Shown piece after piece: positions 7,201 to 41,751 of a DNA stretch of 64,000 bases. The notes below the pieces were generated by a model that ran no database searches, was not told where the DNA came from, and saw only the letters and a list, made by a program, of their open reading frames with translations. A program made the translations under genes and the position numbers. This stretch comes from Acidobacteriaceae bacterium (GTDB lineage Bacteria > Acidobacteriota > Terriglobia > Terriglobales > Acidobacteriaceae), in assembly GCA_021323655.1 (NCBI GenBank), contig JAJPKO010000055.1:1-64000 (forward strand), written 5' to 3'. Position 1 is the stretch's first letter. Each line of letters opens with the position of its first letter.

Positions 7201-9813
7201 ATGGGCTGCTGCGGAAATCAGCAAACTCTCACAAACGTCGGCGACAAGGATCCTGTCTGCGGAATGACCGTGGATCCGGCGAAAGCTGCCGGTCAGTCCG
7301 AATACCGGGGGACTACTTATTTCTTCTGTTCGACTCGGTGCAAGCAGAAATTCGATGACGCGCCGGAGCGGTTCATTGGTCCTTCGGCGGCATCGCGATC
7401 AGAAAAGGTTGAAATCGATCCCGTTTGCGGAATGCAGGTCAATCCGTCCAAGGCGACTGCGACTGCCGTTCACGATGGACAAACGTTCTATTTCTGCAGC
7501 CAGGGATGCGCGGCAAAGTTCAATGTAGATCCTCGGAAGTATCTGAATTCAAGCGAGGAACCGCAGGAAAAGCGGGCGCGAGGTAACTCATCAGCCGAGT
7601 ACACCTGTCCAATGCACCCGGAGGTGAGACAAGCCGGTCCCGGCAGTTGCCCCAAATGCGGGATGGCCCTGGAACCGACGACAATTTCAGCTCCGAAAGC
7701 CGGAACCGAATATACCTGCCCGATGCATCCGGAGATCGTCCGCTCCGAGCCGGGCTCCTGTCCTATCTGCGGAATGGCGCTCGAGCCCCGGGAGATCTCA
7801 GGTACAGAGTCCAATCCGGAGCTAGCTGACATGTCCAGGCGGTTCTGGATTAGTGTGGTTCTATCTCTTCCCGTGCTGGCTCTGATGGTGTCGGAATTGA
7901 TCCCGGGCATGCCGCTTCAGCACATGCTTCCGTGGCGAAGTTGGGCATGGATCGAACTTGCCTTGGCAAGCCCGGTCGTTCTTTGGTGCGGATGGCCGTT
8001 TTTCGAGCGGGCTTGGCAATCATTCGTTCATCGCAGCCCGAATATGTTCACTCTGATTGCACTCGGAACAGGCTCGGCGTATCTCTACAGTCTCGTTGCG
8101 GCCTTTGCGCCGCAGAGCTTTCCGGCTTCCTTCCGCAACGAAGGTGGCGAGATCGGACTCTATTTCGAGCCCGCGATGGTGATTACCGCTCTTGTGCTTC
8201 TTGGCCAGGTGATGGAGTTGCGGGCGCGTAGCCAGACCAGCAGCGCCATTCGTGCGTTGCTCGGACTCGCGCCGAAGATGGCCCGGCGGATCGATCAGCA
8301 GGGTGCGGAATCGGATATCCCGCTCGAGCAAGTGCAGGTGGGAGACAGGCTTCGAGTCCGCCCAGGTGAAAAGGTCCCAGTGGACGGAAGGGTATTGGAA
8401 GGACACAGTTCAGTCGATGAGTCCATGATCACCGGAGAACCGATTCCGATTGAGAAGGAGAAGAACTCCCGAGTGACAGCGGGAACCCTGAACGGTACCG
8501 GAGGGTTCGTGATGGGAGCCGAACGCGTGGGCTCTGATACGCTGCTCTCCCAAATCGTCAAGATGGTGAGCGAGGCTCAACGTTCCCGCGCACCGATTCA
8601 GCGGCTCGCAGACAAGGTCTCTTCCTACTTCGTTCCCGCCGTCATTCTGATTGCGATCATCACCTTCATTGTCTGGTATCTGGCTGGGCCGCAACCCAGA
8701 TTTGCGCATGCTCTGGTCAACGCAGTCGCAGTACTGATCGTGGCATGTCCGTGTGCTCTGGGCCTTGCTACTCCCATGGCTGTGATGGTCGGTACCGGAC
8801 GCGGCGCTCACGCAGGAATCCTCATTCGTAATGCCGAAGCGCTGGAAGTATTCGGCACGGTCAATACGCTCATCGTGGACAAAACGGGAACCCTTACGGA
8901 AGGCAAGCCCCGGCTGAGTTCCGTGTTCAGTGTTTCGACCTATGGTGAATCGGAGTTGTTGCAGATTGTGGCCAGCCTGGAACGGGCAAGCGAACATCCG
9001 CTGGCGCGATCGATCGCTGATGCGGCCGAAGAAAGGAAGCTAGAGTTTCTTTCTATCGACAACTTCAGTTCGCTCACAGGAAGGGGCGTACGGGGCACAG
9101 TCGCGGGGAAAGAAACAGCGGTCGGCAATCTCGATCTATTCCGCGAACTGAAAATCGATTCCTCCCCATTGAGCACAAAAGCCGAGGAACTGCGCGCGCA
9201 AGGCCATACCGTGATTCTCGCCGCTGTCGAGGGAAAATCGGCCGGTCTGGTCGCAGTCTCTGATCCCATCAAGGAGACAACGCCCGAAGCCATTCGCGGA
9301 CTAAAACGAGCCGGTATCAATGTCGTGATGGTGACCGGCGACCATGCGACCACAGCCAAGGCAGTCGCCGAGCAATTGGAAATCGAATTTGAGGCCGGAG
9401 TGCTGCCGGAGCGGAAAGCCGAAGTCGTAAAGGCCCATCAATCGTCTGGAGCAATCGTTGCGATGGCCGGCGATGGCGTGAACGATGCGCCAGCACTTGC
9501 GCAAGCCAATGTCGGTATAGCGATGGGAACTGGAACAGATGTTGCGATGGAGGCAGGCGGAATTACCCTGATTAAGGGAGACTTGCGTGGAATCGTGCGA
9601 GCACGGCACCTAAGTATTGCGACGATGCAAAACATCCGCCAAAACCTGTTCTTTGCGTTCGTCTACAACGCAATTGGTGTACCGGTTGCGGCTGGTGCCC
9701 TATTCCCCACGCTTGGACTGCTTCTGAATCCGATGATTGCCGCGGCGGCGATGAGTTTTAGTTCCGTTTCAGTGATCGCCAATGCGTTAAGGCTGCGAGC
9801 TATAGAGCTTTAA
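7201..9813 (+). CDS. copA: Copper-translocating P1B-type ATPase with two N-terminal YHS domains and two heavy-metal-binding (HMBD) domains
   Basis: [14 protein letters not shown] motif '[22 protein letters not shown]', 'HPLARSI', '[20 protein letters not shown]'; N-terminal YHS x2 and 'YTCPMHPE...CPxCGMALEP' x2. Confidence 0.95.
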
Positions 9814-9879
9814 GCGGCGGAGGGATAGAACAACGCGGGCTGCGGGTGTCGGAAGCGAATACGAACTAGTGGACTATCG

Positions 9880-10540
9880 CGGTGAATTCGTTATTAGATG
9901 AGCGGCGAGAAGGGTTCGAGTATTTCCAGCGGATGGGTGGTGCGTCGGCGGAGTAAGCGCTGACGTAGCGGCGGAGCAAGCGAGCCAGGTCCGTGACGGA
10001 AGTAAAGATACTGCGGGCAATGACCTCGCGCTCGATTTTGGCGAACCACAACTCGACTTGGTTGAGCCACGGGGAATGGTCGGGGTGAAGTGAAACTGCA
10101 CGCGCGAATGCCGTTGCAGGAAATCGCGAACTAATTGCGTTTTGTGGGCGGAGAAGATTGTCGAAGATGATATGAATCCGCTGCCGGAGCGGGCACAAAG
10201 ACGCGACTTCTTCCAGGAAGGCCACGAAGTCGCGGCTGGTGTGACGCCGCAGTCTTTCCATGGACGCGACCGGTTTTGGTATTTAACGCAGCGTACAGCG
10301 AAAGCGTGCCATGCCGGTAGTACACAAAGCCGTGGGTTTGGCGCGTCCCGGCGATAGCGGCAGAACGAGATCGAGGCGATCCAGAGCCTGAATCGCGGTT
10401 TTTTCATCGACCGAGAACACGGCCGTATGCTGTGGCGGATTCAGGTATAAGGCGAGAATGTCGGCCGCTTTGCTCTCAAATTCCGGATCCGCGCAATCTG
10501 CCGCGCTCTTCGGAGAGTACGATCGGCTCGCGGATGCGGC
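9880..10540 (-). pseudogene. IS630-family transposase remnant, frameshifted
   Basis: Fragments in different frames: 'FSVDEKTAIQALDRLDLVLPLSPGRA', 'YYRHGTLSLYAALNTKTGRVHGKT', 'HTSRDFVAFLEEVA...IIFDNL...HPDHSPWLNQVELWFAKIERE'. Confidence 0.8.
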
Positions 10541-10807: not shown

Positions 10808-11242
10808 TTATTTCGTCTCAGTGACGCTTGTGGTGATTCGTGCGCGATAGATAGCGACACGAGCTGAGCACTCTTGCGACTGCACCCCATAGCGCTTTAT
10901 AAGTTCGCGAGTTATATCGACCTGTGTTGCATAAGATCGTGCACGATAAGGGAGGGCGACCAATCGTTGCAGTTCTTTCAGTTGCTGTTCGGATTTCTGT
11001 TCAAACTCCATGGCTCGAAAGTCGAAGTAATCAGCGAGCCTTCCGATGTCATCCGGAGTCTTTGCAGCGTGAATCATGTTCCTGACTTCGGAACGGCTGT
11101 ATCGAGGCGGCAGGTCGGGCGCACGAGCATCAAGGAACATCCTGCGCATTTCATTTTTGCTTGCCATTTGTGCGACCGACTGTGAACAGGCTCCGATTGT
11201 GAGAGCCGCGGTAAGTATCGTGCTTTTGATCGAGGGTTTCAT
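10808..11242 (-). CDS. Small secreted helical protein, family A paralog
   Basis: Signal peptide 'MKPSIKSTILTAALTIGACSQSVAQ' and motif 'SRSEVRNMIHAAKTPDDIGRLADYFDFRA'. Confidence 0.6.
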   Translation of the reverse strand: MKPSIKSTILTAALTIGACSQSVAQMASKNEMRRMFLDARAPDLPPRYSRSEVRNMIHAAKTPDDIGRLADYFDFRAMEFEQKSEQQLKELQRLVALPYRARSYATQVDITRELIKRYGVQSQECSARVAIYRARITTSVTETK

Positions 11243-11278: not shown

Positions 11279-11294
11279 AGCACAGCGCATGCCA
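11279..11294 (-). promoter_or_regulatory. Sigma-54-like -24/-12 promoter (TGGCATGCGCTGTGCT on minus)
   Basis: GG-N10-GC with TGGCA and TGCT, about 38 nt upstream of the 11242 start. Confidence 0.6.
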
Positions 11295-11389
11295 AACGGA
11301 ACATCGGCGTCCCGTCACTACAAGCTCCTCATTTGAGAGAGAATTCTCTGTCCTCCCAATTGAGAAGCGAGAGGGCGCCTTTTTCCGGG

Positions 11390-11405
11390 TGTCCCATTTG
11401 AGGCA
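11390..11405. promoter_or_regulatory. Palindromic UAS (TGTCCCATTTGAGGCA)
   Basis: Matches the recurrent 16-bp palindrome; midpoint 11397.5 is equidistant from promoters at 11279-11294 and 11501-11516. Confidence 0.55.
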
Positions 11406-11500
11406 GTCGGTGGCTGAACTGATCCAGGAAGCCTGATACCGTCCATGGTTTGAAGGCTCGAATGGTTCTGATTCTGCCCGATTTGTTCACGCCGGCAGTT

Positions 11501-11516
11501 TGGTACACGTCGTGCA
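11501..11516 (+). promoter_or_regulatory. Sigma-54-like -24/-12 promoter (TGGTACACGTCGTGCA)
   Basis: GG-N10-GC; 105 bp from the UAS midpoint; upstream of the 11616 ORF. Confidence 0.45.
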
Positions 11517-11615
11517 TATCAGACGGCCAGAAGGCGAGACGCCCTGTGCAGATCACAGTTAGTTGTCGCTCGGAGTAATCCCAGCGAAGGGTGTCGCGCA
11601 GACTGTGGCCACACA

Positions 11616-11894
11616 ATGACCCAGAGTCTGACGAAGAAGGAACTGAAAGTACTGATTGCCAATGCGCGCACTCCCGAGGATCACAGGAGAATTGCGGCAC
11701 ATTACCGGGCCGAGGGGGAACAGCTGAAGGCTAAGCAACGGGAAAATGAAGCGGAACTGGGCCGAATACCTCAAAAACCCTTCGAGCCACCCTGTGCCGA
11801 AGTGGCCGACCATGGATTAGCACTGCCGCCAGTTCATCTCTACCATGAAAAGGCAGCTGAAAAGGCTTTCGCGATGGCCGCGCAGCACGAATAG
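11616..11894 (+). CDS. Family A paralog without a signal peptide
   Basis: 'LTKKELKVLIANARTPEDHRRIAAHYRAEGEQLKAKQ' aligns with family A. Confidence 0.55.
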   Translation: MTQSLTKKELKVLIANARTPEDHRRIAAHYRAEGEQLKAKQRENEAELGRIPQKPFEPPCAEVADHGLALPPVHLYHEKAAEKAFAMAAQHE

Positions 11895-11950
11895 ATGGCC
11901 GAAGAAGCAGGACGGAAGTAAGAGTTCGATTTCGGCGAGGAGATTGAAGG

Positions 11951-12748
11951 ATGCTTACGAAGAGATTGATACAAATAGCGGTTGGGATGATGGCATTGAC
12001 GGGGGCGGCATACAGCGCCCCGCAGCTATCGGCTCAAGCGATCGAGCACGCCACAGAAGCACAGGCGTCCAATTCCGCGAGTGCTACATTCCAATGGAAA
12101 TCACCGGCGCAGTTGCACCGGCTGTTTCCGCTCTCGAAGGTACGCGGCACACTCTTTCTCGACGTCAGCGGCGTCGAATTCGTTTCGGATAGCGGGCAAA
12201 GGCAGAAGTGGACGGCTCTTGACTTCGAGACGTTTACGATCAAGCCGCACAAACTTGTGCTCCACACCTATCACGACCGCGGTCTGGGTCGGCTCGGAGA
12301 AGATTCGAAAGAGTTCAACTTGGCGGAATCGGTGCCCCCATCCGTTGCGGCATGGCTCGCAGGATACGCTGGCCGGCCATCGCGCAATGCTGTCCCCGCT
12401 GCGGTTTCGACCAGCAGCACGGATATTGGCCCCGATCAGCACCTGGTTGCCGTTCATCATCGCGCCGTATTCGGGGGCACGAGCGGAGTTCTACGATTCC
12501 GGCAGGGGGGAATCGACTACATCACGAACGTGCCAGGGGGCAGCCGGAGTTGGCGGTGGGAAGATATTCAGACTCTGTCCGAGCCGAACCCTTACCTTTT
12601 GTATGTCTTCGGATACAAGGATACGTTCACTTTCGATCTGAAAGAGCCGCTTGACCGTACCCTCTACGAGCACGCGACGGCGGCAGTCAGTGCCTATCAA
12701 GAGAATGGGCCTTCAAATGCGGCGCGACTCGAAGCGCCCAAAATGTGA
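11951..12748 (+). CDS. Hypothetical exported protein
   Basis: 265-aa ORF with a signal-peptide-like N-terminus. Confidence 0.6.
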   Translation: MLTKRLIQIAVGMMALTGAAYSAPQLSAQAIEHATEAQASNSASATFQWKSPAQLHRLFPLSKVRGTLFLDVSGVEFVSDSGQRQKWTALDFETFTIKPHKLVLHTYHDRGLGRLGEDSKEFNLAESVPPSVAAWLAGYAGRPSRNAVPAAVSTSSTDIGPDQHLVAVHHRAVFGGTSGVLRFRQGGIDYITNVPGGSRSWRWEDIQTLSEPNPYLLYVFGYKDTFTFDLKEPLDRTLYEHATAAVSAYQENGPSNAARLEAPKM

Positions 12749-12784: not shown

Positions 12785-13198
12785 ATGAGATTAACTGGTA
12801 TGATGCGGCGGACAAAACTCGTGGCAAGCCTACTGGCGTTCGCGCTTGCGGCTTCTCCTGTTCTTGCCGCAATCCCGTGCCAGCAGGCCGCGCAGTTCAA
12901 AATGCAGTGCGGGTCCAGCTGCCCCATGATGGCCAAAGCATCGAGCGGCAAAGCCATCAGTACGTCAGGAACAGGACCCACCAGCGCGACGCCTTCCTGC
13001 TGCCAAAAGTCCTCCCAACCTGCAGCCCCTTCTACCACGCAGGCAGGCCCTGAGCGGCCTTTGTACCTGGGGCTCCATGCGAGCGATGCAGCGATAGTTG
13101 CAGATGATCCGGCTCCGTATCAAGTATCAGTTCCGGCCCTGACGACGCTGTGTGTTGCTCCGCGTTCGCAAGCATCGTTGTGCACATTTCTGATCTGA
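12785..13198 (+). CDS. Small exported Cys/Met protein preceding the Cus operon
   Basis: Signal peptide, 'MQCGSSCPMMAKAS', 'SCCQKSS'. Confidence 0.6.
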   Translation: MRLTGMMRRTKLVASLLAFALAASPVLAAIPCQQAAQFKMQCGSSCPMMAKASSGKAISTSGTGPTSATPSCCQKSSQPAAPSTTQAGPERPLYLGLHASDAAIVADDPAPYQVSVPALTTLCVAPRSQASLCTFLI

Positions 13199-13277: not shown

Positions 13278-14642
13278 ATGAAAGCCATACGGCACCTCGC
13301 GGCGCTGTTGTTGCTGCCTTCCTCCATTCACCTGGGAGGTATGGGCACAGCGGCCGCACAGGAAACAGAGAAGAGCATCCCGGCGGACTCGCCGTCGAGC
13401 CAGCAGTCTCTCCGGATCGATGACGTGATTCGGGAGGCGCTCGAGAAGAACCCCGAGGCGCAAAGCGCGTTGCACACAGTGAACGCGCTGGAACGGCGCG
13501 TGCCCCAGGCAAGAGCCCTGCCCGATCCCGTAGCTTCGGTTGGGTGGGCCGGCAATATCGCTCCGTTCAGCATCATGTCGGGCGACGCGTCGAGCTACCG
13601 CGGCGTCACAGTTGCGGAACAATTCCCGTATCCGGGCAAGCTGAAGCTGCAAGGGCAAATTGCAAGCAAGGAAGCCGAAGCTGCGCGGGCCGATTACGAG
13701 TCGGTGCGCCGCAGAATCACAGCCGACGTCAAGGCCGCATATTTCGACTACTTCTACTACGACAAGGCGATCCAGACGACCACCAAGAACAAGGAACTTC
13801 TCGAGAAACTCTCGCAGATTGCCGAGGCCCAATACCGCGTCGGCAAGGGCATGCAGCAGGATGTGCTGCGGTCGCAAGTGGAGATCTCGCTGCTCGTCGA
13901 GAAGCTAACGGTCCTCGAGCAACAGCGGGCGACAGCACAGGCTCGAATCAACACGTTCCTCCTTCGCTCTCCCGAATCTCCTTTGCCGCCAGCCGCCGAT
14001 GTGGTGCCCTCGACGCTTCGTTATTCGCTCGACGATCTGTATGCTCTGGCCGCCGACAACGACACTGGTGTCCTGCGCAACCGGAGGATGGTGGAACGTG
14101 GCCGTCTGAGCATGGCCTTGGCCGAAAAGCAATATAAGCCCGATTTCGGCGTGGGATACATGTACCAGCAGCGCGCGGCGCAGCCGGATATGAATGGCGT
14201 GACTTTCAGTGTGAACATTCCTGTGTTCTACCGGAGCAAGCAGCGCCAGGGCGTGGCCGAAGCCGCGGAGGGTCTGCTAAGCGCGGAGAAGATGCGCGAC
14301 AACCGCTTGAACGAGGTCCGATTCGAGTTGAAACAGCAATACCTGGCGGCGCAAGCTTCGCAGAAGCTGGTGAGTCTCTATGCGAAGGGCGTCGTCCCGC
14401 AGTCGTCGCTGGCTCTTGAGTCGGCGATGTCGTCCTACCAGGTGGGCAAGGTCGATTTTCTTTCGCTGATCGCGAACTTCACCACGCTGCTCGATTACGA
14501 AACGGACTACTATCGTCAACTGGCCGATTATCAAACCGCTCTCGCCCGCATCGAAAGCCTGACCGGCGTTGCTGTTGGAGATGATTCGAATACAAATCCT
14601 GGCGCATCTGTTCCGCGGCCGGCAAATGAGGTGCAGCAATGA
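13278..14642 (+). CDS. cusC: TolC/CusC-family outer membrane efflux protein
   Basis: 'ALEKNPEAQSALHTVNALERRVPQARALPDPVASVGW' and coiled-coil repeat architecture; upstream of CusB/CusA. Confidence 0.85.
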   Translation: MKAIRHLAALLLLPSSIHLGGMGTAAAQETEKSIPADSPSSQQSLRIDDVIREALEKNPEAQSALHTVNALERRVPQARALPDPVASVGWAGNIAPFSIMSGDASSYRGVTVAEQFPYPGKLKLQGQIASKEAEAARADYESVRRRITADVKAAYFDYFYYDKAIQTTTKNKELLEKLSQIAEAQYRVGKGMQQDVLRSQVEISLLVEKLTVLEQQRATAQARINTFLLRSPESPLPPAADVVPSTLRYSLDDLYALAADNDTGVLRNRRMVERGRLSMALAEKQYKPDFGVGYMYQQRAAQPDMNGVTFSVNIPVFYRSKQRQGVAEAAEGLLSAEKMRDNRLNEVRFELKQQYLAAQASQKLVSLYAKGVVPQSSLALESAMSSYQVGKVDFLSLIANFTTLLDYETDYYRQLADYQTALARIESLTGVAVGDDSNTNPGASVPRPANEVQQ

Positions 14643-14992
14643 ACACGCAGGCATTCATGGAAACCGAGACCAGGAGAGAGACGTGCACGCGCTCGGAACT
14701 GGTTTTCGCAACACTCGTTCATGTTCCCAACCGCTATCGTCTTTGCCAGTTGACGGCCAAAGGAGCACGTAAACTCCACAAGCCGAATGAGCGGATGCAG
14801 GATACGGTGAACGAAGTCCTGATGATTTTCGACGGTTCGAGCACGGCAGTTTCGGTTCCGAGCGCGCCTCAGCTGATCCCGGAGTCATCATTGCATCCTG
14901 TGTTCCAAGCCAGTCACCTCCCAGATGCAACACCCCTTGTTCTGAGCCAGACAACATTCATGCGGGAAGAGAGGAATTACAGCCATGTTTAG
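14639..14992 (+). CDS. RNA polymerase omega/Rpb6-like small protein
   Basis: 'ELVFATLVHVPNRYRLCQLTAKGARKLHKPNERMQDTVNEVL' resembles the RpoZ/Rpb6 NRxxL...AKxARxL core. Confidence 0.45.
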   Translation: MNTQAFMETETRRETCTRSELVFATLVHVPNRYRLCQLTAKGARKLHKPNERMQDTVNEVLMIFDGSSTAVSVPSAPQLIPESSLHPVFQASHLPDATPLVLSQTTFMREERNYSHV

Positions 14993-16430
14993 GTCTCCGA
15001 AGAAAATCGTCGCACTCGTTCTACTCATCGCGGCGCTGGTGGTTGTCTATATGGGAGCCACTCATCGGTGGTTCGGTTTCGCATCCACTCAGGACGCCGG
15101 CGGACAGAAGGTCCTCTACTGGTATGACGCAATGAATCCGCAGCACCACTACAACAAGCCGGGCAAAGCCCCCGATGGCATGGACCTTCTGCCGCAATAC
15201 GCGGAGCAGACGGCGTCACCCGCGGCCCCCCCGTCGACCTTGCCGCTTACGGACATGGCCAACATGCCGGGCATGTCGACGAAGGGCGGTGAGCGGAAGG
15301 TCCTCTATTGGTACGACCCGATGCATCCCGCTTACAAATCAGACAAGCCGGGGACTGCTCCCGACTGCGGGATGACACTGGTTCCGAAGTATGCCGACGA
15401 CGAAAACATGGCCAAGATGCCCATGGGGACTGTGACGATATCAGCCGAAAAGCAGGTAATGGCGGGCGTGCGCACTGCGATTGTCGATCGCAAGCCGCTG
15501 GTTCGGGACATTCGCACCACGGCACAAATCGTTGCGGACGAGACGAAAATCGCCCATGTCCATGTGAAAGTATCTGGCTACGTCGAGAAGGTTTATGTGG
15601 ACTACGTTGGGCAACTGGTCAAGAAAGGGGAGCCGCTCTTCAGTCTTTATAGCCCCGACCTGGTTTCAACCGAAGAGGAATATCTCATCGCCAAGCGGGG
15701 CAACGCTACACTCGGAAGCGCTCCTTTCCAGGACGTCAGTGCGGGCGCAAAATCTCTGCTCGCATCTACGTTGCAACGCTTGAGCCTGTGGGACATTTCA
15801 GACGAGCAGATACGCCAGATCGATCTTTCGGGGAAGGTCAGCAGAGATCTCACCTTTTATTCGCCGGTAACCGGTTTTGTAACGGACCGCAAGGCGTTTC
15901 CTCAGGCCTCCGTAACTCCCGACACCGAACTCTACACGGTTTCGGACCTGTCTACCGTTTGGGCGAACGCGGATATCTACGAATACGAAGTTCCCTACGT
16001 GCATCTTGGCCAACGTGTTTCCTTCTCTTTGAGTTACTACCCTGGGAAGACCTACACGGGGAAGATTTCGTACATCTATCCGACAGTCGATTCACAGTCT
16101 CGAACCGTCAAAGTCCGCATCGAAATCCCCAACCCCGGCTTCGAATTAAAACCGCAGATGTTCGCCGACGCGCAACTCCGGATCGATTACGGCACGAAGA
16201 TCCTGATTCCGCAAGAGGCGGTACTCGACTCGGGCACGGAACAGCAGGTTTTTGTGGTGCACCCCGGTGGCATGTTTGAACCTCGAAAGGTCACCCTTGG
16301 CCCGGTCGTCGATGGAAATGTTGCGGTACTCACTGGGCTGAAGGTCGGCGAAACCGTAGTTGTGTCCGGAAACTTCCTTATCGACTCCGAGAGCAGGCTC
16401 AAGAACGCGATGAGCGGAATGCAACACTGA
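14985..16430 (+). CDS. cusB: CusB-type RND periplasmic adaptor with two N-terminal HMBD-like motifs (first one degenerate)
   Basis: 'KVLYWYDPMHPAYKSDKPGTAPDCGMTLVPKYAD', 'VSGYVEKVYVDYVGQLVKKGEPLFSLYSPDLVSTEEEYL'. Confidence 0.9.
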   Translation: MFRSPKKIVALVLLIAALVVVYMGATHRWFGFASTQDAGGQKVLYWYDAMNPQHHYNKPGKAPDGMDLLPQYAEQTASPAAPPSTLPLTDMANMPGMSTKGGERKVLYWYDPMHPAYKSDKPGTAPDCGMTLVPKYADDENMAKMPMGTVTISAEKQVMAGVRTAIVDRKPLVRDIRTTAQIVADETKIAHVHVKVSGYVEKVYVDYVGQLVKKGEPLFSLYSPDLVSTEEEYLIAKRGNATLGSAPFQDVSAGAKSLLASTLQRLSLWDISDEQIRQIDLSGKVSRDLTFYSPVTGFVTDRKAFPQASVTPDTELYTVSDLSTVWANADIYEYEVPYVHLGQRVSFSLSYYPGKTYTGKISYIYPTVDSQSRTVKVRIEIPNPGFELKPQMFADAQLRIDYGTKILIPQEAVLDSGTEQQVFVVHPGGMFEPRKVTLGPVVDGNVAVLTGLKVGETVVVSGNFLIDSESRLKNAMSGMQH

Positions 16431-16441
16431 GGAGAATGATT

Positions 16442-16936
16442 ATGAACGCTCGACGCATCGCCATAATAGGCATTCTGATCCTTGTAGCCGGCGCCGCGGG
16501 CTACGGCTGGTTCAGGTTTGTCGCGCACCCTAAACAAGTCGCATGCGGCTATTGCCTGCGGCCGCTGCATGCCAACTTGATGGTGACAGCCGAGATTGAC
16601 GGCAAGAGCGCACAGGTCTGCTGCCCTCGCTGCGCCATCACGGAAGCAAATCAGCAGCGGAAGTCTCTTCGATTGATCACGGTGCACGACTATCGCACCG
16701 GCAAGGCCATATCCCCGGAAACTGCCTGGTTCGTGGAAGGCAGCCGGGCTATGGCCTGCGATCACGATGCGATGCGCATGAATGAAATGAAAGGAACTGA
16801 GGAGCTTGCATTTGATCGATGCTCACCGGGGATCTTCACGTTCGGCGACAAGCAAGAAGCGGTTGCATTCACTCAAGCGAATGGTGGAGCCGTTATTTCC
16901 TTCGGGCAGTTGATGAGTGAGGCGAAATTCCAATGA
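16442..16936 (+). CDS. NosL-like copper-binding protein (putative)
   Basis: TM anchor, 'CGYCLRPLH', 'HDYRTGKAISPETAWFVEGSRAMACDHDAMRM', 'FTFGDKQEAVAFTQANGGAVISFGQL'. Confidence 0.55.
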   Translation: MNARRIAIIGILILVAGAAGYGWFRFVAHPKQVACGYCLRPLHANLMVTAEIDGKSAQVCCPRCAITEANQQRKSLRLITVHDYRTGKAISPETAWFVEGSRAMACDHDAMRMNEMKGTEELAFDRCSPGIFTFGDKQEAVAFTQANGGAVISFGQLMSEAKFQ

Positions 16937-19900
16937 TGAACAAGATTATCGACTTCAGTGATAAAAACCGGTTCCTGATCTTCCTCTTCGTTGCGGTGGC
17001 CATCGTGCTCGGATGGACCGCGATGAGGAACACGAAGCTCGACGCAATTCCCGATCTCTCGGACACCCAGGTGATCGTCTATGCGAAGTGGGACCGCAGC
17101 CCCGACATCATGGAGGATCAGGTTTCCTATCCGATCGCCTCCGCACTGCTCGGATTGCCAAAGGTCAAGGATATTCGCGCCTTCTCCGATTTCGGCTACT
17201 CGTATATCTACATCATCTTCGACGAAGGTACGGACATTTATTGGGCACGTTCCCGGACGCTTGAATACCTGAATTCCGTCACTCCACGGTTGCCCAAAGG
17301 AGTCAATGTCGAATTGGCGAAGGACGTGACCTCCGTCGGTTGGGTCTATCAGTACGCCCTTGTCGATACGACAGGGCAGCACAGTATCGAGGAACTGCGC
17401 TCCTACCAGGACTGGTATCTCCGCTACGCATTGCAGACCGTGCCCGGCGTCGCCGAAGTCGCGCCAATCGGCGGCTTCGTGCGCCAGTACCAAGTCAATG
17501 TCGATCCGAACAAGCTTCTTGCCTACAAGGTCCCGATCAACGCGGTCAGCGACGCCGTACAGAAGTCCAACAACGACGTCGGGGGGCGATTGGTTGAATT
17601 TACCGGCCGCGAGTACATGGTCCGTGGGCGCGGATATATCCGTTCCCTCGAAGATATCGGCAAGACAGTGATCATGTATAACGCGCAAACCGGAACTCCG
17701 GTGCTGGTCCGCGATGTGGCCACAGTAACCTTTGGCCCGGAAATACGGAGAGGCGCAGGTGAACTGGACGGTAAGGGAGAAGCTGTTGGCGGTGTCGTCA
17801 TCATGCGCTACGGAGAAAACGCGCAGAAGGTGATCGAACGCACCAAGGAGAAACTGAACGACCTGAAGTCCACTCTGCCTCCTGGCGTCAAACTTGTCAC
17901 TACTTACGACCGCTCCGAATTGATTGACCGGGCAGTCGAAAACCTCCGGCATACCTTGATCGAAGAACTGGTCATTGTAAGCGTAGTGATCATGATCTTC
18001 CTGTGGGATCTTCGTAGCGCCATTGTTCCGATTATTACCATCCCTGTCACCGTGATTCTGGCCTTCATGCCCATGCAATGGATGGGGATGACCGCGAACA
18101 TTATGTCGCTGGGTGGCATTGCCGTCGCTATCGGCGCACTGGTGGATGCATCCGTAGTCATGGTCGAACAGACCCACAAGAAGCTCGAACACTGGGAAGC
18201 GGAAGGCCGGCCTGGTCCATCGCATGCCGTTGTGATTGCGGCAGTGAAGGAGGTCGGAGGGCCGAGCTTCTTCGCACTGTTGGTGATCGCGGTCGGCTTC
18301 CTCCCCGTCTTCACCCTGGAGGGACAGGAAGGCCGCCTTTTCAAACCATTGGCGTTCACCAAGAACTTCTCCATGGCGATTGCAGCATTGCTGGCGATCA
18401 CGTTGGCGCCGGCGGCCATGCGCTTCATCTTCTCGCGGATGGACGGGTTCAACTTCCGTCCTAAATGGCTTGCAAACATCGTCAACGCGCTCTTTGTTGG
18501 AAAGATCCACAGCGAGGAAAACCATCCGATCAGCAAGCCAATGATGAAGGTCTATCATCCGGTGGTCGAGTTTGTTCTCGATCACAAATGGCTGACCATC
18601 GGATTCGCTCTTCTCGTGATGGCGTTGAGCGTTCCCGTTTACTTCAAACTCGGATCGGAGTTCATGCCGCCTCTCGATGAAGGCACTCTTCTTTACATGC
18701 CATCGACATTGCCTGGCATCTCTGTAACGGAAGCAACTCGTGTGCTCGAAATGCAGGACAAGATGATTCGCGCCTTCCCAGAGGTCGACCGGGTTTGGGG
18801 AAAAGCAGGCCGTGCTGAGAGTTCAACCGATCCAGCTCCCTATTCCATGATGGAAACCACGATCGTTCTGAAGCCACAGGATCAATGGCCGAAAATCGAC
18901 CGCTGGTACTCGAAGTCAATGCCACAGTGGTCTCAGTCGGTTCTACGAAGATTCTGGCCGGATCACCTAACCACGCAGGAATTGATCTATGGTCCCGGAG
19001 GGTTGAATGAGGCTCTCCAGTTGCCTGGGATCTCAAATGCCTGGACCATGCCCATCAAGGCTCGCACCGACATGCTCACCACTGGCATTCGTACGCCGCT
19101 CGGCATCAAGGTGCTCGGCGCCGATCTCGGGCAGATTCAGCAGGTCGGAGAGCAGATCGAGACGGCACTGAAGGACGTTCCCGGAACCACGAGCGTCTTT
19201 GCGGAAAGAACGAGCGGCGGCTACTTCCTCGACTTCGACCTGAAGCGGGATGAACTGGCTCGTTATGGGTTGACCATCGACGACGCGGAAAACGTGCTGA
19301 TGTCGGCCGTGGGGGGCGAGCCTGTCTCTACGACCGTCGAGGGCCGCGAGCGGTATCCGGTTAACGTGCGTTATCTGCGGGATTACCGCAGCGATGTCGA
19401 TGCACTTCAACGCGTGCTGGTGGCAACGCCCTCCGGTGCGCAGATTCCGCTCGGCCAGATTGCCGATATACGCATGAAGACCGGCCCTGGCATGATCCGC
19501 GACGAAAACGGAAGGCTCAGCGGCTACGTTTACGTCGATGTATCGGGGCGTGATATTGGCGGCTATGTGCGCGACGCGAAGAAGGCGGTTGCGGATAAGG
19601 TCAAAATACCTGCCGGTTACGAGCTTGTGTGGAGCGGGCAGTACGAGTTCATGGAGCGCGTAGCGCAACGTCTGAAATTCGTCGTTCCCATTACGCTCTT
19701 CATCGTCTTCCTGCTGCTCTATTTCAACACCGGCTCGGCGATCAAAACCATGATCATTCTGCTGGCGGTGCCCTTCTCAGCCATCGGCGCGATCTGGTTC
19801 CTATACCTGCTGCATTACAACATGAGTATCGCTGTGTGGGTGGGCCTCATCGCGCTGCTCGGAGTCGATGCCGAGACGGCTGTCTTTATGCTTCTCTACC

Positions 19901-20241
19901 TGGATCTTGCTTACCACGACGCGCTAAAGACGGGCGGCATACACTCATGGGACGATCTGCGCGAAGCGATCGTTCACGGAGCGGTCAAGCGACTTCGCCC
20001 CAAAGTGATGACCGTTTCGTGCATGCTCTTTGGACTGCTGCCCATCATGTGGTCTGCCGGAACCGGGGCCGATGTGATGAAGCGCATCGCAGCTCCAATG
20101 CTTGGCGGCATCATCACTTCGTTCTTCATGGAACTGGTCGTTTACCCTCCGATCTTTGGGATCTGGAAGTGGAACTGGGAGGTGAAGCCCGCGCTGAAGC
20201 GTGAAGCGGCCGCCCAGACCGCCGAGGCCACCCATGCATAG
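16933..20241 (+). CDS. cusA: CusA-type heavy-metal RND efflux pump
   Basis: 1102 aa; '[28 protein letters not shown]', '[18 protein letters not shown]', '[26 protein letters not shown]'. Confidence 0.95.
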
Positions 20242-24592: not shown

Positions 24593-24673
24593 CGCCCCAA
24601 ATGGGGCAGGATGTGCCGGATTTGCGGCACTGCGAATGGCGCCCACCAGAGATCTCGTGCCGGATTTCCCTGC
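24593..24673. promoter_or_regulatory. Three-site UAS array: 24593-24608 CGCCCCAAATGGGGCA, 24614-24629 TGCCGGATTTGCGGCA, 24658-24673 TGCCGGATTTCCCTGC
   Basis: Copies of the recurrent palindrome; first two start 21 bp apart, next 44 bp. Confidence 0.6.
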
Positions 24674-24714
24674 GATAGGTGCGATTTATCTGCTTGATAC
24701 TTCCAAAAACCGTT

Positions 24715-24730
24715 TGGCATCGGACGTGCT
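24715..24730 (+). promoter_or_regulatory. Sigma-54-like -24/-12 promoter (TGGCATCGGACGTGCT)
   Basis: GG-N10-GC downstream of the UAS array. Confidence 0.6.
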
Positions 24731-26420: not shown

Positions 26421-26810
26421 TCACATTGCTCCAGCGTCCTTGGCCATCTGCTCGTGCATATCGGCGAGTTCCTGCATCTTGGTAGCCATGTACTTGAAGG
26501 ACTGCGCGAAATACTCACAATGATTTACCGTGCCCGTAGCGAACTTCGATGAACTGGTCATGGGGTTTTTCTTATACGCCTTAGCCATCTCCTGATGCTC
26601 CTTGGCTTGAGCCAGGTAATCCTGCGCCGTCGCATGGTAATACTCCGCAACACGTCGGTGTTCCGCCGGCGTCTTCGCGGAGGCGATCGGGGAGAGAAGC
26701 TGCTGTTTGCTGAGCTTTTCCGGTTTGTGCTTTTGGGCAGTCGAAACCTGCCAAACAGCAGAGAGCATAACCACGAAAACAATTGCAAGAATTCCTAACG
26801 AACGTTTCAT
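26421..26810 (-). CDS. Small secreted helical protein, family A paralog
   Basis: Signal peptide; 'LSKQQLLSPIASAKTPAEHRRVAEYYHATAQDYLAQAKEHQEMAKAY'. Confidence 0.7.
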   Translation of the reverse strand: MKRSLGILAIVFVVMLSAVWQVSTAQKHKPEKLSKQQLLSPIASAKTPAEHRRVAEYYHATAQDYLAQAKEHQEMAKAYKKNPMTSSSKFATGTVNHCEYFAQSFKYMATKMQELADMHEQMAKDAGAM

Positions 26811-27105
26811 CTGGTCCTCCACTGATCACTGAGATTGGAATTGCAGGGATGCTCTAAGTAATGCCCTTGGCCCCTCTGGATCTGATGTGAGCAAACACTC
26901 GCCGGAAGCAAGAGCATACATCAGCCGCAATTGATCGCCGCTGTGTCCTTCAGAGGTGGTTCAACCCTATTTCTGATTCCAAGTATTGTCACAAAAGCGA
27001 TATATTCTCAAAATTTCTGCTTCCATAACCGTGAGTTAAGAAATTCGCCATTTGAATCTTGAAGGGCGAGCAGAATGTAGCTTCAAACTACTGTCTTCCA
27101 AATGT

Positions 27106-29767: not shown

Positions 29768-29783
29768 TGCACTCTGCGTGCCA
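29768..29783 (-). promoter_or_regulatory. Sigma-54-like -24/-12 promoter (TGGCACGCAGAGTGCA on minus)
   Basis: GG-N10-GC with full TGGCACG; about 37 nt upstream of the 29732 start. Confidence 0.7.
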
Positions 29784-29889
29784 AATGAAACTCCTTGCGG
29801 ATGTCGGAATTTCGGACCGCAAGTGGCTCGTCAGAAGAGAGATATGCGCAGCGGCACATACTTCAGAGAGGGCGGCTCAACTTCGGCGT

Positions 29890-29905
29890 TGCCTCATCTG
29901 AGGCA
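29890..29905. promoter_or_regulatory. Perfect palindromic-arm UAS (TGCCTCA-TC-TGAGGCA)
   Basis: Perfect 7-bp arms; 116 bp from the -24 GG. Confidence 0.65.
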
Positions 29906-34222: not shown

Positions 34223-34810
34223 CTACAGCGGGATACTCATTGTCTTTGCGATCTTTGTGTGCTCGGAGCGCCACTCGCCAAGGTCCTTGGTGATAGCATT
34301 CACATCCCATCGGAGCTTGGGCGATCCTGGCCCTGGTTTGGCATCCATCAAGATCTGGCTCATGAGCAGAGAACTGGAATTCAGGTCAGCTTCCAGATGG
34401 TTGAGCTTTCTAAGCTGCCGGTCCAAACCATTTTTTTGGGCTTCGTTCAGCTCCCCCCAAAATGCCTGATGTGCGGCGGTCATGGCGCTAAGCGCCGACT
34501 CGAACTTCTCTTGCTGTTCCGTAAGCTTCCGAAGGTCTTGCGGATCATAGCTTGCACGTCCTCGGCTCCAGGGGCTCCCGGTGCGCTTCATCTGTTCGAT
34601 TGCTGCGCTAACTCGCTGTGTGGCATCCATGCACTCGGCGAATGCAGTGCGTTGCTTGTCCGTGGCCATCATGAGGAATGTTCGTGCGGATTCGTCGCTT
34701 GACCCAACCGGGGCCGAGTGGCCCATGCCGGGCATCCCTTCATGTTGTGCGTGCACCAATGCCGGAATGGCCAGCATGACAGCTGCGAGTAGCCTCATTG
34801 TCAATTTCAT
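34223..34810 (-). CDS. Small secreted helical protein, family B paralog
   Basis: Signal peptide; 'GSPWSRGRASYDPQDLRKLTEQQEKFESALSAMTAAHQAF...WRSEHTKIAKTMSIPL'. Confidence 0.7.
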   Translation of the reverse strand: MKLTMRLLAAVMLAIPALVHAQHEGMPGMGHSAPVGSSDESARTFLMMATDKQRTAFAECMDATQRVSAAIEQMKRTGSPWSRGRASYDPQDLRKLTEQQEKFESALSAMTAAHQAFWGELNEAQKNGLDRQLRKLNHLEADLNSSSLLMSQILMDAKPGPGSPKLRWDVNAITKDLGEWRSEHTKIAKTMSIPL

Positions 34811-34882
34811 CGAAAGAATCTCCATGCGTGTTTATTCAGGATCACTTCAGCTCGGGAACTCCCAATCTCCCCCCATAATGCG

Positions 34883-35335
34883 TCAAACCGCATTCGCGAC
34901 CCCGTTTTGCGGTACCAGTTCCGAAAACACATTACGAATTCTGTGCGTCTGATCCCGGGCCAGCGTCTGCGCGCCCAGAGATGCGGTTACCTTGACCACG
35001 CCAGCGGGGTTGTCCGCAAGAATGAAAGTTGCGTCCTTCCCTTCAGCAATGCAGATCTTGAAAGGGACGAGTAGCCCGCCGTCGTGACCGCTTAACAGAG
35101 CCGGACATGCATCCGATGGGCTCCACACCAGCAAGACGGTGTAATGCTTCCAGTTCATCCCGAGCTGTGCCCAAGGCAGCCCGGCTCTGCGCTCCATTTC
35201 GCGAAGGAGCGGGAATTCAAAAAGGACTTCAAGCCCGTGACGCGCCAGGGCCGCACGCAAATGCTGAATTGTTTCCCGGTAGCTGGCCGTCGTTCGCATC
35301 GAAATGGAGAATCCGTGTGCCATCGTGCTGATCAT
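34883..35335 (-). CDS. DUF302-domain protein
   Basis: 'SYRETIQHLRAALARHGLEVLFEFPL...YTVLLVWSPSDACPALLSGHDGGLLVPFKICI'; paralogous to 43083-43565. Confidence 0.75.
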   Translation of the reverse strand: MISTMAHGFSISMRTTASYRETIQHLRAALARHGLEVLFEFPLLREMERRAGLPWAQLGMNWKHYTVLLVWSPSDACPALLSGHDGGLLVPFKICIAEGKDATFILADNPAGVVKVTASLGAQTLARDQTHRIRNVFSELVPQNGVANAV

Positions 35336-35959: not shown

Positions 35960-36361
35960 TTACACGCCGGTCGGAGCCAATTTCTCGGGCGCCTCTTTAG
36001 CCATCCGCTCGTGCAGTGTTGCAAGTCCCTGTGACTTGACGGCCATGTCCTTGAAATACTGAGAGTAAGACTCGCAATGATCAATGAAAACTGCTCGGGA
36101 TTTGCCGCCTCTGCTCGGGTTCGCGTTGTACGCCGCAAGCATCTGCTCGTGTTCTTTCGATTGAGTCAGATAATCCTGTGCCTTGGCCCTGTAATACTGG
36201 GCGATGCGCCGGTGTTCCGCTGGCGTTGATGCAATGGCGATCAAGGTGTTGAGTTGATGCTTGCTGAGATGCTCGGGCTTGGTAGGCGCTTGTCCAAGGG
36301 CAGCAACAGTCATGATAAGGGCGAGTGAAAGGACGGAAAAAATGCTAACGGTGCGTTTCAT
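35960..36361 (-). CDS. Small secreted helical protein, family A paralog
   Basis: 'LSKHQLNTLIAIASTPAEHRRIAQYYRAKAQDYLTQSKEHEQMLAAYNANP'. Confidence 0.7.
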   Translation of the reverse strand: MKRTVSIFSVLSLALIMTVAALGQAPTKPEHLSKHQLNTLIAIASTPAEHRRIAQYYRAKAQDYLTQSKEHEQMLAAYNANPSRGGKSRAVFIDHCESYSQYFKDMAVKSQGLATLHERMAKEAPEKLAPTGV

Positions 36362-36401
36362 AGGAATCTCCTTACTTCAAATTGACTTCGCCCTTCTTCA
36401 G

Positions 36402-36417
36402 TGCACTCATCGTGCCA
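36402..36417 (-). promoter_or_regulatory. Sigma-54-like -24/-12 promoter (TGGCACGATGAGTGCA on minus)
   Basis: GG-N10-GC, about 42 nt upstream of the 36361 start. Confidence 0.7.
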
Positions 36418-36532
36418 AATCTTGGTTGGGTTCGGTTTAAGAGGTAAGTTCGTAAGTGGCTCATATCAAGGGGCATACATAGCGCGACGAAAGGGGCGGA
36501 GGTTTTCAAGATTGCCGCTCGTTGCCTTAATT

Positions 36533-36548
36533 CAGGCAGCAGTGGCCG
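36533..36548. promoter_or_regulatory. Palindromic UAS (TGCCTTAATTCAGGCA)
   Basis: Recurrent palindrome, 125 bp from the -24 GG. Confidence 0.6.
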
Positions 36549-38297: not shown

Positions 38298-38651
38298 TCA
38301 ATATCCTCCCCGTCTCGACTCCGCAAGTCGGTGGCGAGAATGCTCGATCTTGGCCTGTACCCGCTGCACTGTGAAGTGCTTGTTGTTCACAGCCAGGGGT
38401 AGCGTCGTACCCGTCATCGGATCGTTGAACAGAACAAGATTCGGGTTTCCGGTCCGGGGCACTCCACGTTGAACGCCCACAAACTGCCCGCCTGGCTTGC
38501 AAATGGCCGCCTTCGCCAACTGCAGAATCAGCATCGTTGTTTCCCGGTAGCTGTGGAGATTGGGCATTGGTTCTGTTCCTGCCGGTACAGACTGCACGTC
38601 CTGTGCCAAAGGGTTGCGGTAGGATTTGGGTTGATAAGGCTTGAAAATCAA
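38298..38651 (-). CDS. Hypothetical protein
   Basis: ORF with 'AKAAICKPGGQFVGVQRGVPRTGNPNLVLFNDPMTGTTLPLAVNN'. Confidence 0.45.
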   Translation of the reverse strand: MIFKPYQPKSYRNPLAQDVQSVPAGTEPMPNLHSYRETTMLILQLAKAAICKPGGQFVGVQRGVPRTGNPNLVLFNDPMTGTTLPLAVNNKHFTVQRVQAKIEHSRHRLAESRRGGY

Positions 38652-38691
38652 TGAGTCAGCTCATTCTTCAGCAGCCGAAGATCGTTTGCAC

Positions 38692-38707
38692 TGCCGCAAA
38701 TCCGCCA
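38692..38707. promoter_or_regulatory. UAS-like palindrome variant (TGCCGCAAATCCGCCA) upstream of the two-component operon
   Basis: 15/16 identical to TGCCGCAAATCCGGCA, the reverse complement of sites at 24614 and 41675. Confidence 0.45.
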
Positions 38708-38713
38708 TTCCTC

Positions 38714-38729
38714 TGGCGCATTTGGAGCA
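38714..38729 (+). promoter_or_regulatory. Sigma-54-like promoter candidate (TGGCGCATTTGGAGCA)
   Basis: GG-N10-GC upstream of the histidine kinase; unusually close to the UAS-like site. Confidence 0.35.
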
Positions 38730-38764
38730 AACAGCAGTGGCTGTAGGGGGACCACTATCGCGAG

Positions 38765-39955
38765 GTGCGGGAATCGGCAGGAATCTGCTTCTACCGCTCT
38801 CGAGGTCCTGAATGGCATCCCGCGTGCAGTGCTAAAATCGCGCTCGTGAGGACATCGGCAAAAGACTGGCAGCGCGCGGCAATTCTGGCAGCGGCAATCG
38901 CGGCCGTGGCGTTGCTGCACTACCACACACCGGTAAGCCACGTATGGATCCACCCACTGTTACAGCGGGCATATTACATTCCGGTTTTGCTTGCAGCCTT
39001 ATGGTTTGGCTGGAAGGGTGGCTTAGCAGCGGCAACTCTGGCGGGAGCCTCCTATATTCCGCACATTATGATGGCGTGGAATTTCGAGCCTCAATACAAA
39101 GCCGCCCAATACATTGAGATCGGAATGTTTTTTGCGATTGCGGCTCTCACCGGCGTGCTGGCAGATCACGAGCGCGCTCAGCGGCATAGGGTCGAGGAGA
39201 CTGCTCGCCGGCTGAGCGAGGTGTATACGCAATTGCAAAAGTCATTCGAGCAACTCCGTCGCGCAGACCGCATGTCCGCGTTAGGGGAGCTGTCGGCAGG
39301 ACTCGCACACGAGGTTAGGAACCCGCTCGGGTCCATCGAGGGCGCAGTCCAAATCTTGGGACGCCGCGATCTGGAAGAGAATACGCGTCAGGAATTCACG
39401 GAGATGGCCTCGCGAGAGGTCGTGCGGCTAAAGGGGCTGCTTACTCACTTCCTCGAATTCGCGCGGCCACAACAGCCGCGCGTCGTCGCGTCGGACATGG
39501 AGTTGTTGCTTCACTCGGTGGCAAAGCTGGCAAGTGAAACAGCAAAGATGGCACAGGTCGAGATCCTGGTTGAGTCAGAGTCAACTTTGCCCCAAGTACC
39601 GATTGACCCGGAACAGATCAGGCAAGTGCTCCTGAACCTTGTCATCAATGCGGTGCAGGCTATGCCGAATGCCGGCCAGATCCGATTGCGTGCAACTCAT
39701 GAGGGAGAGAATATTCGCATCGAGATTGAGGACCAAGGTGTTGGCATCCCTGCGGATGACGTGGAAAGGATCTTCGACCCGTTCTTTACGACTCGCGACA
39801 ACGGAACAGGACTTGGCCTTTCGATTGCTTACCAAATTGTGAGCCAGCACGGCGGGCATATCGCCGCAAAGAGGAACCCGGAACGCGGCATGACGTTCAC
39901 AGTGACACTGCCATTGGCGGCGAGCGCTGCTGAGCCGACTCTCGCAAGGAGCTAA
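38765..39955 (+). CDS. NtrB-type membrane sensor histidine kinase
   Basis: N-terminal TM segments; H-box 'LSAGLAHEVRNPLGSI', N-box 'VLLNLVINAVQAMP', 'GVGIPADDVERIFDPFFTTRDNGTGLGLSI'; alternative GTG start at 38846. Confidence 0.9.
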   Translation: MRESAGICFYRSRGPEWHPACSAKIALVRTSAKDWQRAAILAAAIAAVALLHYHTPVSHVWIHPLLQRAYYIPVLLAALWFGWKGGLAAATLAGASYIPHIMMAWNFEPQYKAAQYIEIGMFFAIAALTGVLADHERAQRHRVEETARRLSEVYTQLQKSFEQLRRADRMSALGELSAGLAHEVRNPLGSIEGAVQILGRRDLEENTRQEFTEMASREVVRLKGLLTHFLEFARPQQPRVVASDMELLLHSVAKLASETAKMAQVEILVESESTLPQVPIDPEQIRQVLLNLVINAVQAMPNAGQIRLRATHEGENIRIEIEDQGVGIPADDVERIFDPFFTTRDNGTGLGLSIAYQIVSQHGGHIAAKRNPERGMTFTVTLPLAASAAEPTLARS

Positions 39956-41368
39956 ATGGCGAACGAATTGATTCTCGTGGTCGACGATGACGCCAGCCAG
40001 CGGCGGCTGGTTGAGTTCTGGCTGAAGGAAGCGGGGTACACCGTCGTCACGGCACCGGATGGCCGGGCCGGTCTCCTGACGTTTACGGAAAAAAACCCCG
40101 CACTCGTGATTGCTGACATCCGCATGCCTGGGCTCAGCGGCCTCGATTTGCTTGGCCGCATCAAGGCCCTGAACGCGGATACGCCCGTCATTCTGATCAC
40201 CGCCTTCGGCACCGTCGGTGATGCCGTGGATGCAATGAAACTGGGTGCGGCCGACTACGTCCTCAAACCGCTCAATGCGGACGAACTCAAAGTCAACGTT
40301 CAGCGCGCCCTGGAACACCGGCAGTTGGTGGACGAGAACCGCTATCTTCGCGATTTCAGCGATACGGCGTTCCGGTTTGAAAACCTGGTGGCCGGCTCAA
40401 AAAGGATGCGCGACGTCTTCAATCTCGCGGCACATGTCGCGCGCCGCGATTCCACGGTTCTCGTTACCGGAGAATCCGGCACAGGCAAGGAACTGATCGC
40501 GAAGGCCATTCACCAGAACAGCCTTCGTGTTTCGAAGCCGTTCATCACGGTGAACTGCGGGGCCATTCCCGAGAGCTTGATTGAATCGGAGCTGTTCGGC
40601 CACCGCAAGGGATCGTTCACTGGCGCCGTCGCCGATCGCGTGGGTAAATTCGAAGCCGCAAACGAAGGCACGGTTTTTCTCGATGAGGTGGGAGAGCTTC
40701 CTATCAATCTTCAGGTGCGCCTGCTGCGCGTGATTCAAGAGCGCGAGATCGATAAGATTGGCTTTCCGAAGCCGATAGCCGTAAATGTGCGCATCATTGC
40801 GGCGACGAACCGGGACTTGCGCACGCAGATTGAGGACGGCCAATTCCGAGAGGACCTCTTTTATCGTTTGAGTGTGGTGACCGTGGAACTGCCGCCCTTA
40901 CGCGAGCGGCGGGATGATGTTCCCCTGCTGCTGACTCACTTTCTGAAGAAGCACTGTTCTCGGTATCAGCTGCCTTTACCATCGATCAGCGACGGCGCGC
41001 TGGAAATCTTGACTCGCTATGACTGGCCGGGAAACGTCCGGGAGTTGGAGAATGTCGTCGAGCATGCGGTTGTGCTTGGCGCTTCAGAAACGATCCGAAC
41101 CGAAGATTTGCCGGCCCACATGCGAAATGCAACATCCCGGATCAGCTCCATCAGCCTCAAGTTGCCCGACGAGGGGATCGACCTTGAGGGAGTGGAGAAG
41201 GAGATCCTGTTGCAGGCTCTTGAGAAGAACCAGTGGAATCAGACACGGACTGCGCGGTATCTGAACATCAGCAGGAAGACGCTTATTTATAGGATGGAGA
41301 AGTTCTCTCTCATACCGACGGCATCCTCCAAACCGCAGGTCGACGAAGAGGGTGAGCACGTCTCCTGA
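39956..41368 (+). CDS. NtrC-family sigma-54-dependent response regulator
   Basis: Receiver 'LVVDDDASQRR...ADIRMPGLSGLDLL'; AAA+ 'GESGTGKELIAKAIH'; GAFTGA 'HRKGSFTGAVADRVGKFE'; Fis-type HTH 'QTRTARYLNISRKTLIYRMEKF'. Confidence 0.95.
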   Translation: MANELILVVDDDASQRRLVEFWLKEAGYTVVTAPDGRAGLLTFTEKNPALVIADIRMPGLSGLDLLGRIKALNADTPVILITAFGTVGDAVDAMKLGAADYVLKPLNADELKVNVQRALEHRQLVDENRYLRDFSDTAFRFENLVAGSKRMRDVFNLAAHVARRDSTVLVTGESGTGKELIAKAIHQNSLRVSKPFITVNCGAIPESLIESELFGHRKGSFTGAVADRVGKFEAANEGTVFLDEVGELPINLQVRLLRVIQEREIDKIGFPKPIAVNVRIIAATNRDLRTQIEDGQFREDLFYRLSVVTVELPPLRERRDDVPLLLTHFLKKHCSRYQLPLPSISDGALEILTRYDWPGNVRELENVVEHAVVLGASETIRTEDLPAHMRNATSRISSISLKLPDEGIDLEGVEKEILLQALEKNQWNQTRTARYLNISRKTLIYRMEKFSLIPTASSKPQVDEEGEHVS

Positions 41369-41674
41369 AGGAGATCCCGAGTCGCTCGAAATTGTTCTCG
41401 CCGTCAATTACTGAATAGAAGAATTTTGCGCGCGTCTTTAGACGGAGGCCAAGAATGCCCTGTCCGAGCATACGGCGCCGCGAAGCCCCTATATGTCCAG
41501 CGCGTTGTTCTCAAGTGTGGCTGGAATGATCCCACCCGTACTGACGCTCGGGTAGCCAATCGAAGGCATTGAATCGAGCCCTGGTTCGCAGTTCACTTTA
41601 TCCAGACGCCACCCCGAGATCCCGAGACATCGCATCGGTCTGATGCGAACCCCTGGTTGAAATGCGCCAACCGG

Positions 41675-41690
41675 TGCCGGATTTGCGGCA
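41675..41690. promoter_or_regulatory. UAS palindrome (TGCCGGATTTGCGGCA)
   Basis: Identical 16-mer to 24614-24629; no clean -24/-12 found downstream. Confidence 0.4.
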
Positions 41691-41751
41691 ATTCAAGCGG
41701 CTTCCAAGCTATCCGAGCGTGGCCTATCCTGACTTTTCGTAGGAAAGCGCC

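Follow-up and report, generated by a model that had tools for sequence, protein, structure and literature searches.

A candidate shared enhancer between divergent sigma-54-type promoters in a metal-resistance island of an Acidobacteriaceae bacterium

Does a palindrome that lies exactly midway between two divergent sigma-54-type promoters act as one enhancer for both? This question is raised by a locus at 11.3 kb in the window analysed here, which comprises bases 1-64000 of an 80,398-bp contig from the 4.59-Mb genome of an Acidobacteriaceae bacterium. A first-pass annotation had described one palindrome between the promoters of two paralogous genes, and had taken the symmetry as a sign of a single enhancer serving both directions. 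Our analysis leads to a related reading, to which we give a probability of about 0.78: one shared enhancer region controls divergent sigma-54 promoters, one for a small secreted protein and the other for an efflux operon, within an island for resistance to metal, probably copper/silver. From sequence alone, this reading proposes a putative regulator, a motif for its binding and a rule of spacing for a metal-resistance regulon of Acidobacteriota, and the shared equidistant enhancer would offer a tidy natural system in which to study how two promoters are served by a single sigma-54 enhancer.

Geometry of the control region

The palindrome TGTCCCATTTGAGGCA, a strong upstream activating site at 11390-11405 (centre 11397.5, no strand assigned), is common to two promoters of the -24/-12 type: TGGCATGCGCTGTGCT on the minus strand (11279-11294), in front of the small gene A1, and TGGTACACGTCGTGCA on the plus strand (11501-11516), in front of the efflux operon. 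Sigma-54 promoters were defined by GG and GC elements 10 bp apart within TGGCAC-N5-TTGCW, and both have this structure, each with 10/10 matches to a slightly relaxed consensus. With -24 GG centres at 11292.5 on the minus side and 11502.5 on the plus side, both promoters are exactly 105.0 bp away from the middle of the palindrome, and transcription is predicted to start near 11268 and near 11527, respectively. The palindrome, the two promoters and the arithmetic of their distances are thus exactly as first annotated. The count of one palindrome is not, since a weak second activating site, TGGCTGAACTGATCCA (11411-11426, no strand assigned; 8.9 bits, with a per-position chance of 4.4e-4), is placed 21 bp plus-ward of the strong one, 126 bp from the minus promoter and 84 bp from the plus promoter. 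The control region is therefore more than strictly one palindrome, and it shares this feature with most promoters of the regulon described below, where sites occur as pairs spaced by 20-22 bp, in many cases a strong site with a weaker one distal to it.

A pattern search of the whole 4.59-Mb genome found the narrow pattern TGYCYCANNTGRGRCA at only two places, both inside the window, and the looser pattern TGCCNNANNTNNGGCA at 12, six of which lie in the 64-kb window. The window contains 10 perfect -24/-12 sites (TGG[CT]A[CT]N6TGC[AT]), where Markov shuffles of both strands would give 0.66, and a palindrome of related type stands upstream of nine of the ten. A motif model trained on ten other window sites, from which 11390-11405 was held out, gave this palindrome 17.3 bits, a score reached by nine window sites against 0.13 expected; the site deviates from the regulon consensus in one half, which reads TGTC instead of TGCC. 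Judged by these statistics, the presence of the palindrome midway between divergent promoters is not a chance occurrence. The one perfect -24/-12 match that lacks a strong upstream activating site, at 47894-47909 (plus) of the window, is located inside a glycogen-debranching-type gene.

An island-wide regulon with quantised spacing

The motif TGCC-N-S-A-WW-T-S-N-GGCA occurs at about 12 sites before nine sigma-54 promoters of the 64-kb metal-resistance island. Distances between site and promoter cluster near 94, 105 and 115 bp, in steps of one helical turn. Helical phasing was quantified by a Rayleigh test on 40 distances from the window and its relatives, with both promoters of the 11.3-kb region omitted and with sites picked anywhere within a range of at least 60-160 bp, irrespective of their precise spacing (p ~1e-12, for periods of 10.5 and 11 bp). 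Both promoters at 11.3 kb stand at a spacing found across the regulon and are perfect matches, in agreement with their initial description as sigma-54-like.

The same regulon includes, on the plus strand, sites 24593 and 24614 with the promoter 24715-24730 (24593-24730; 116/95 bp), sites 41654 and 41675 with the promoter 41774-41789 (41654-41789; 114/93 bp), and site 42925 with the promoter 43036-43051 before a DUF302-like gene (42925-43051; 105 bp). On the minus strand, site 29890 serves the promoter 29768-29783 (29768-29905; 116 bp), the letters of both being identical in one relative (L156) at 117 bp; site 36523 stands before the promoter 36402-36417 of the family A gene A4 (36402-36538; 115 bp); and sites 57598 and 57619 accompany a weaker promoter at 57510-57525, with 8/10 matches (57510-57634; 82/103 bp). 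A second divergent pair at 38593-38828 consists of the promoters 38593-38608 (minus) and 38813-38828 (plus) with the sites 38692 and 38714, at 93/115 bp both ways. DUF302-like paralogues were seen at 34886-35335 (minus) and 43083-43565 (plus), and the site-linked sigma-54 promoter of the latter is conserved in four relatives (L014, L016, L017 and L018).

In the window and its relatives, 77 strong sites were counted, with a promoter at an allowed distance on one side in 56 cases, on both sides in 4 and on neither in 17. Good motif sites also occur in the same genome outside the island, at 1501-1516 of L003 (21.6 bits) and 1501-1516 of L013 (22.1 bits), with no sigma-54 promoter at an allowed distance from either; they are either chance matches or distant members of the regulon.

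A putative sensor kinase and activator

A single kinase/NtrC-type activator pair was recognised in the window, at 38846-41368. It consists of a membrane histidine kinase (38846-39955, plus; Pfam HisKA and HATPase_c), the putative sensor of the regulon, and an NtrC-family sigma-54 activator (39956-41368, plus), the putative regulator of the sites, in which Response_reg (PF00072), Sigma54_activat (PF00158) and HTH_8 (PF02954) all score over cut-off. The Walker A motif and the receiver Asp are present in the activator, and GSFTGA at residue 219 is a one-residue variant of GAFTGA, the loop by which such activators contact sigma-54. RpoN is also encoded in the genome (PF04552 match, 199.7 bits).

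Activators 83-92% identical to this one were found in L014-L019, where the motif and its spacing, modelled from the window only, mostly recur; the exception is L019, with no site in the stretch examined. Of 301 genomes of the family, 13 contain the activator, which is missing from the one congener sampled, and no plasmid-borne relative was found at ≥60% identity. The compound site-plus-promoter pattern gave 26 matches in the 13 activator genomes versus 38 in the 288 without activator, many of the latter resembling coding Zn-ribbon sequence. Among close relatives that have the sites, the recognition helix YLNISRKTLIYRMEKF is invariant; it differs in L020-L022, in which no site accompanied by a promoter was detected. 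This correlation of co-occurrence and spacing suggests that the island activator acts on the sites. Binding by some other regulator, with the position of the motif relative to the -24/-12 sites being incidental, would accommodate the 17 strong sites without a promoter at an allowed distance; but fixed helical spacing to sigma-54 promoters, together with co-occurrence with the island activator, is what is predicted of a sigma-54 activator site, and we regard this alternative as very improbable.

The plus promoter and the efflux operon

The plus promoter had been assigned to a family A paralogue at 11616-11894. Comparison by tblastn with the intact L154 and L155 orthologues showed that this gene, A2 (plus), is a relic, with homology over ~11563-11916 spread over more than one frame and containing in-frame stops. 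Membership of family A holds for A1 on the other side, while the plus-side copy is frameshifted and interrupted, and the view of A1 and A2 as two equal paralogues was rejected because A2 is broken.

The conserved target in the plus direction is the operon located behind the broken copy, not a paralogue of A1. All its genes lie on the plus strand. It is headed by a secreted-type protein (11951-12748; 'sec' family) and its conserved neighbour, a small Cys/Met-containing secreted-type protein (12785-13198), for which 'dsb' is a working name only. These are followed by a TolC/CusC-like outer-membrane efflux protein (13281-14642; Pfam OEP, 3.2e-44), a CusB-like membrane fusion protein with heavy-metal binding domains (14985-16430; HlyD_D23, 5.3e-75, and HMBD, 7.6e-18), a NosL-like metal-binding protein (16436-16936; NosL, 3.8e-5, barely above the curated cut-off) and a CusA/CzcA-family RND pump (16933-20241; TIGR00914, 1075 bits versus a cut-off of 701). 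The latter has methionines at the three positions where a Cu(I)/Ag(I) pump would be expected to have them, its metal specificity being a prediction. Copper is likewise suggested by CopA (7201-9813), the heavy-metal binding domains of CusB, the CusA methionines and a multicopper oxidase; the assignment is drawn from the regulated genes only, because no metal-binding domain was recognised in the sensor kinase.

DNA surrounding the plus promoter can be aligned to positions 11494-11625 of L113, from the relative G286 (75% over 76 bp). In G286, the promoter drives the orthologues of the gene at 11951 and onward in identical order (secreted, small Cys/Met, TolC, CusB, NosL-like, CusA), and the two CusA proteins are 98% identical. 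Orthologues of the 11951 gene or its operon stand behind site-linked sigma-54 promoters in six relatives (G286, G184, G308, G164, G268 and G339); in one of them, G268 (L155), promoter and operon are separated by an intact family A gene. As far as sequence comparison goes, A2 is this same gene in a broken state.

The plus-promoter orthologue of G286, the closest one, has strong sites at 93 and 114 bp, where the window has the weak site at 84 bp and the strong site at 105 bp. If these are the same pair, the 84/105 arrangement would correspond to the 93/114 arrangement; the match is drawn from the 21-bp spacing and the order of the sites, because the intervening DNA has diverged. Such a shift, by about one helical turn, and the broken state of A2 would also be consistent with a site kept mainly for A1, next to a plus promoter that is being lost, its proximal site decayed to the weak 11411 copy and its first gene broken. 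We consider this unlikely, as the plus -24/-12 elements are still perfect within a homologous stretch, the highly conserved efflux operon downstream is intact, and a sigma-70 scan of 11516-11951 revealed no alternative promoter that could serve it.

The minus promoter and A1

A1 (10808-11242, minus) is a small protein with a signal-peptide-like N-terminus, assigned to family A by alignment. Its AlphaFold2 model is predicted to be all-helical (mean pLDDT 82), and the predicted leader measures ~26 nt, from the start at 11268 to the ATG at 11242. The relationship of A1 to A3 and A4 is real, weak by pairwise score and clear in the multiple alignment. For the family as a whole, nothing scored above cut-off in Pfam or NCBIfam, a fold search with the A1 model gave no match with E ≤ 0.001, and no close orthologue of A1 was detected among 100 relatives. 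A4 (35972-36370, minus) stands behind the site-linked promoter 36402-36417. A3 (26424-26822, minus), which is 86-92% identical in L114 and L156 and weakly matches LIC_10421 family models, differs from A1 and A4 in that no activating site could be recognised upstream of it.

None of the relatives examined has the two-sided arrangement, so the minus promoter cannot be confirmed by conservation. Since only the plus promoter has a demonstrable orthologue and the minus target A1 is not conserved, site 11390-11405 could drive the plus promoter alone, the minus -24/-12 match being a coincidence or a relic. Several observations make this improbable. The minus promoter is a perfect match, and the chance that such a match also falls at an allowed distance on a site's other side, calculated as density times positions tested, is of the order of 1e-4; for this reason the minus promoter is probably real, although no orthologue of it was found. 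Relative to the minus promoter the weak site has the canonical position, whereas the plus promoter has it on the wrong side, in reversed order; the layout of a strong site at 105 bp and a weak one at 126 bp is shared by the 43036 promoter and by L116, L117 and L131. Lastly, other members of A1's family (A4, A5 of L113, and those of L154 and L155) stand behind such promoters. Just past A1, a broken DDE_3 (IS630-like) transposase remnant (9869-10261, minus) may mark the rearrangement that put A1 beside the efflux promoter.

Symmetry and the second divergent pair

The exact midpoint was rejected as evidence of design. Spacing in the regulon is quantised (~94/105/115 bp), so that any two promoters of one spacing class that flank a site will necessarily stand at equal distances from it. 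A shared enhancer region remains the simplest reading of the locus, as originally proposed, but the symmetry is no mark of special design. Of the four strong sites with promoters on both sides, the window accounts for three (11390, 38692 and 38714), and the fourth, in L116, has only a weak second promoter. Two-sided arrangements with two strong promoters, absent from the relatives examined, were found in only two regions for the 77 strong sites, both in the window. The expected conservation of spacing was thus borne out for the motif and the spacing classes, which recur in relatives, but not for the exact two-sided symmetry, which was observed in no relative examined.

The 38593/38813 pair was rejected as independent confirmation of the symmetry, given that relatives conserve its minus promoter alone, the plus (kinase-side) promoter being specific to this genome. 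At the kinase-side position, relatives keep the sigma-70-like TGCTAAAAT with a GTG start codon directly after it, which suggests sigma-70, possibly near-leaderless, expression of the kinase gene. In the relative G184, a divergent sigma-54 pair at L118 8620-9053 has separate activating sites for each promoter (8717 and 8963), none of them shared.

Proposed mechanism

In the shared-enhancer reading, the island histidine kinase would sense metal stress and phosphorylate the adjacent NtrC-family activator, dimers of which would bind the strong site 11390-11405, aided by the weak site 11411-11426. The activator would then form an ATPase ring and, we infer, loop over 105 bp, or ten helical turns, to sigma-54 polymerase in either direction. 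Leftward, this would switch on A1, a small secreted-type helical protein; rightward, it would switch on the Cus-type efflux operon, whose first gene, the family A copy, has decayed. Secreted protein and pump would thus be turned on together. A much more speculative extension, which we hold to be unlikely, is that the ring on the equidistant enhancer loops to one promoter at a time and acts as an arbiter that divides or alternates output between A1 and efflux, with the weak site setting the bias.

Comparison with known systems

The operon resembles the Cus/Sil copper-silver efflux systems in its TolC-, CusB- and CusA-type genes and in the methionine positions of the pump. CusSR of E. coli is an OmpR-type system working with sigma-70, whereas control here is predicted to involve sigma-54 and an NtrC-family activator. 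In our incomplete coverage of the literature, no description of sigma-54 control of copper efflux in Acidobacteriota was found.

Classical NtrC/NifA-type sites lie ~80-150 bp upstream of their promoters (PMC4987338). The sites described here are similarly palindromic, often paired and placed on -24/-12 promoters; they differ in the unusually strict helical quantisation (94/105/115 bp) across one regulon and in a site pair that would be read in both directions.

A shared sigma-54 control region is a known idea. In E. coli and Salmonella, ZraR controls the divergent sigma-54 promoters of zraP-zraSR from one spacer (PMC4987338, PMC8249747; promoter coordinates in PMC4591121). New here are the regulon, the motif and spacing rule, and a strong site that would be read at equal distance in both directions. 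As in ZraSR, a kinase and an NtrC-family regulator would respond to metal or envelope stress, and a regulator-binding spacer would be common to divergent sigma-54 promoters. Conversely, the 11.3-kb pair does not include the regulator, and its plus promoter faces an RND efflux operon; the island regulon comprises at least nine promoters, whereas E. coli ZraR was called a single-target regulator on the basis of genomic SELEX (PMC8249747). Membership of the ZraR/ZraSR family was rejected, as the curated equivalog cut-offs were not reached (ZraR, 423 versus 760; ZraS, 212.5 versus 479). The ZraSR trait of regulator genes on one side of the divergent pair is lacking at 11.3 kb, and at 38.6 kb the sigma-54 promoter facing the kinase is not conserved in relatives. 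One further likeness to ZraSR is a CpxP/ZraP-type protein among the targets, at 34226-34825, with an LTXXQ match slightly under the curated cut-off.
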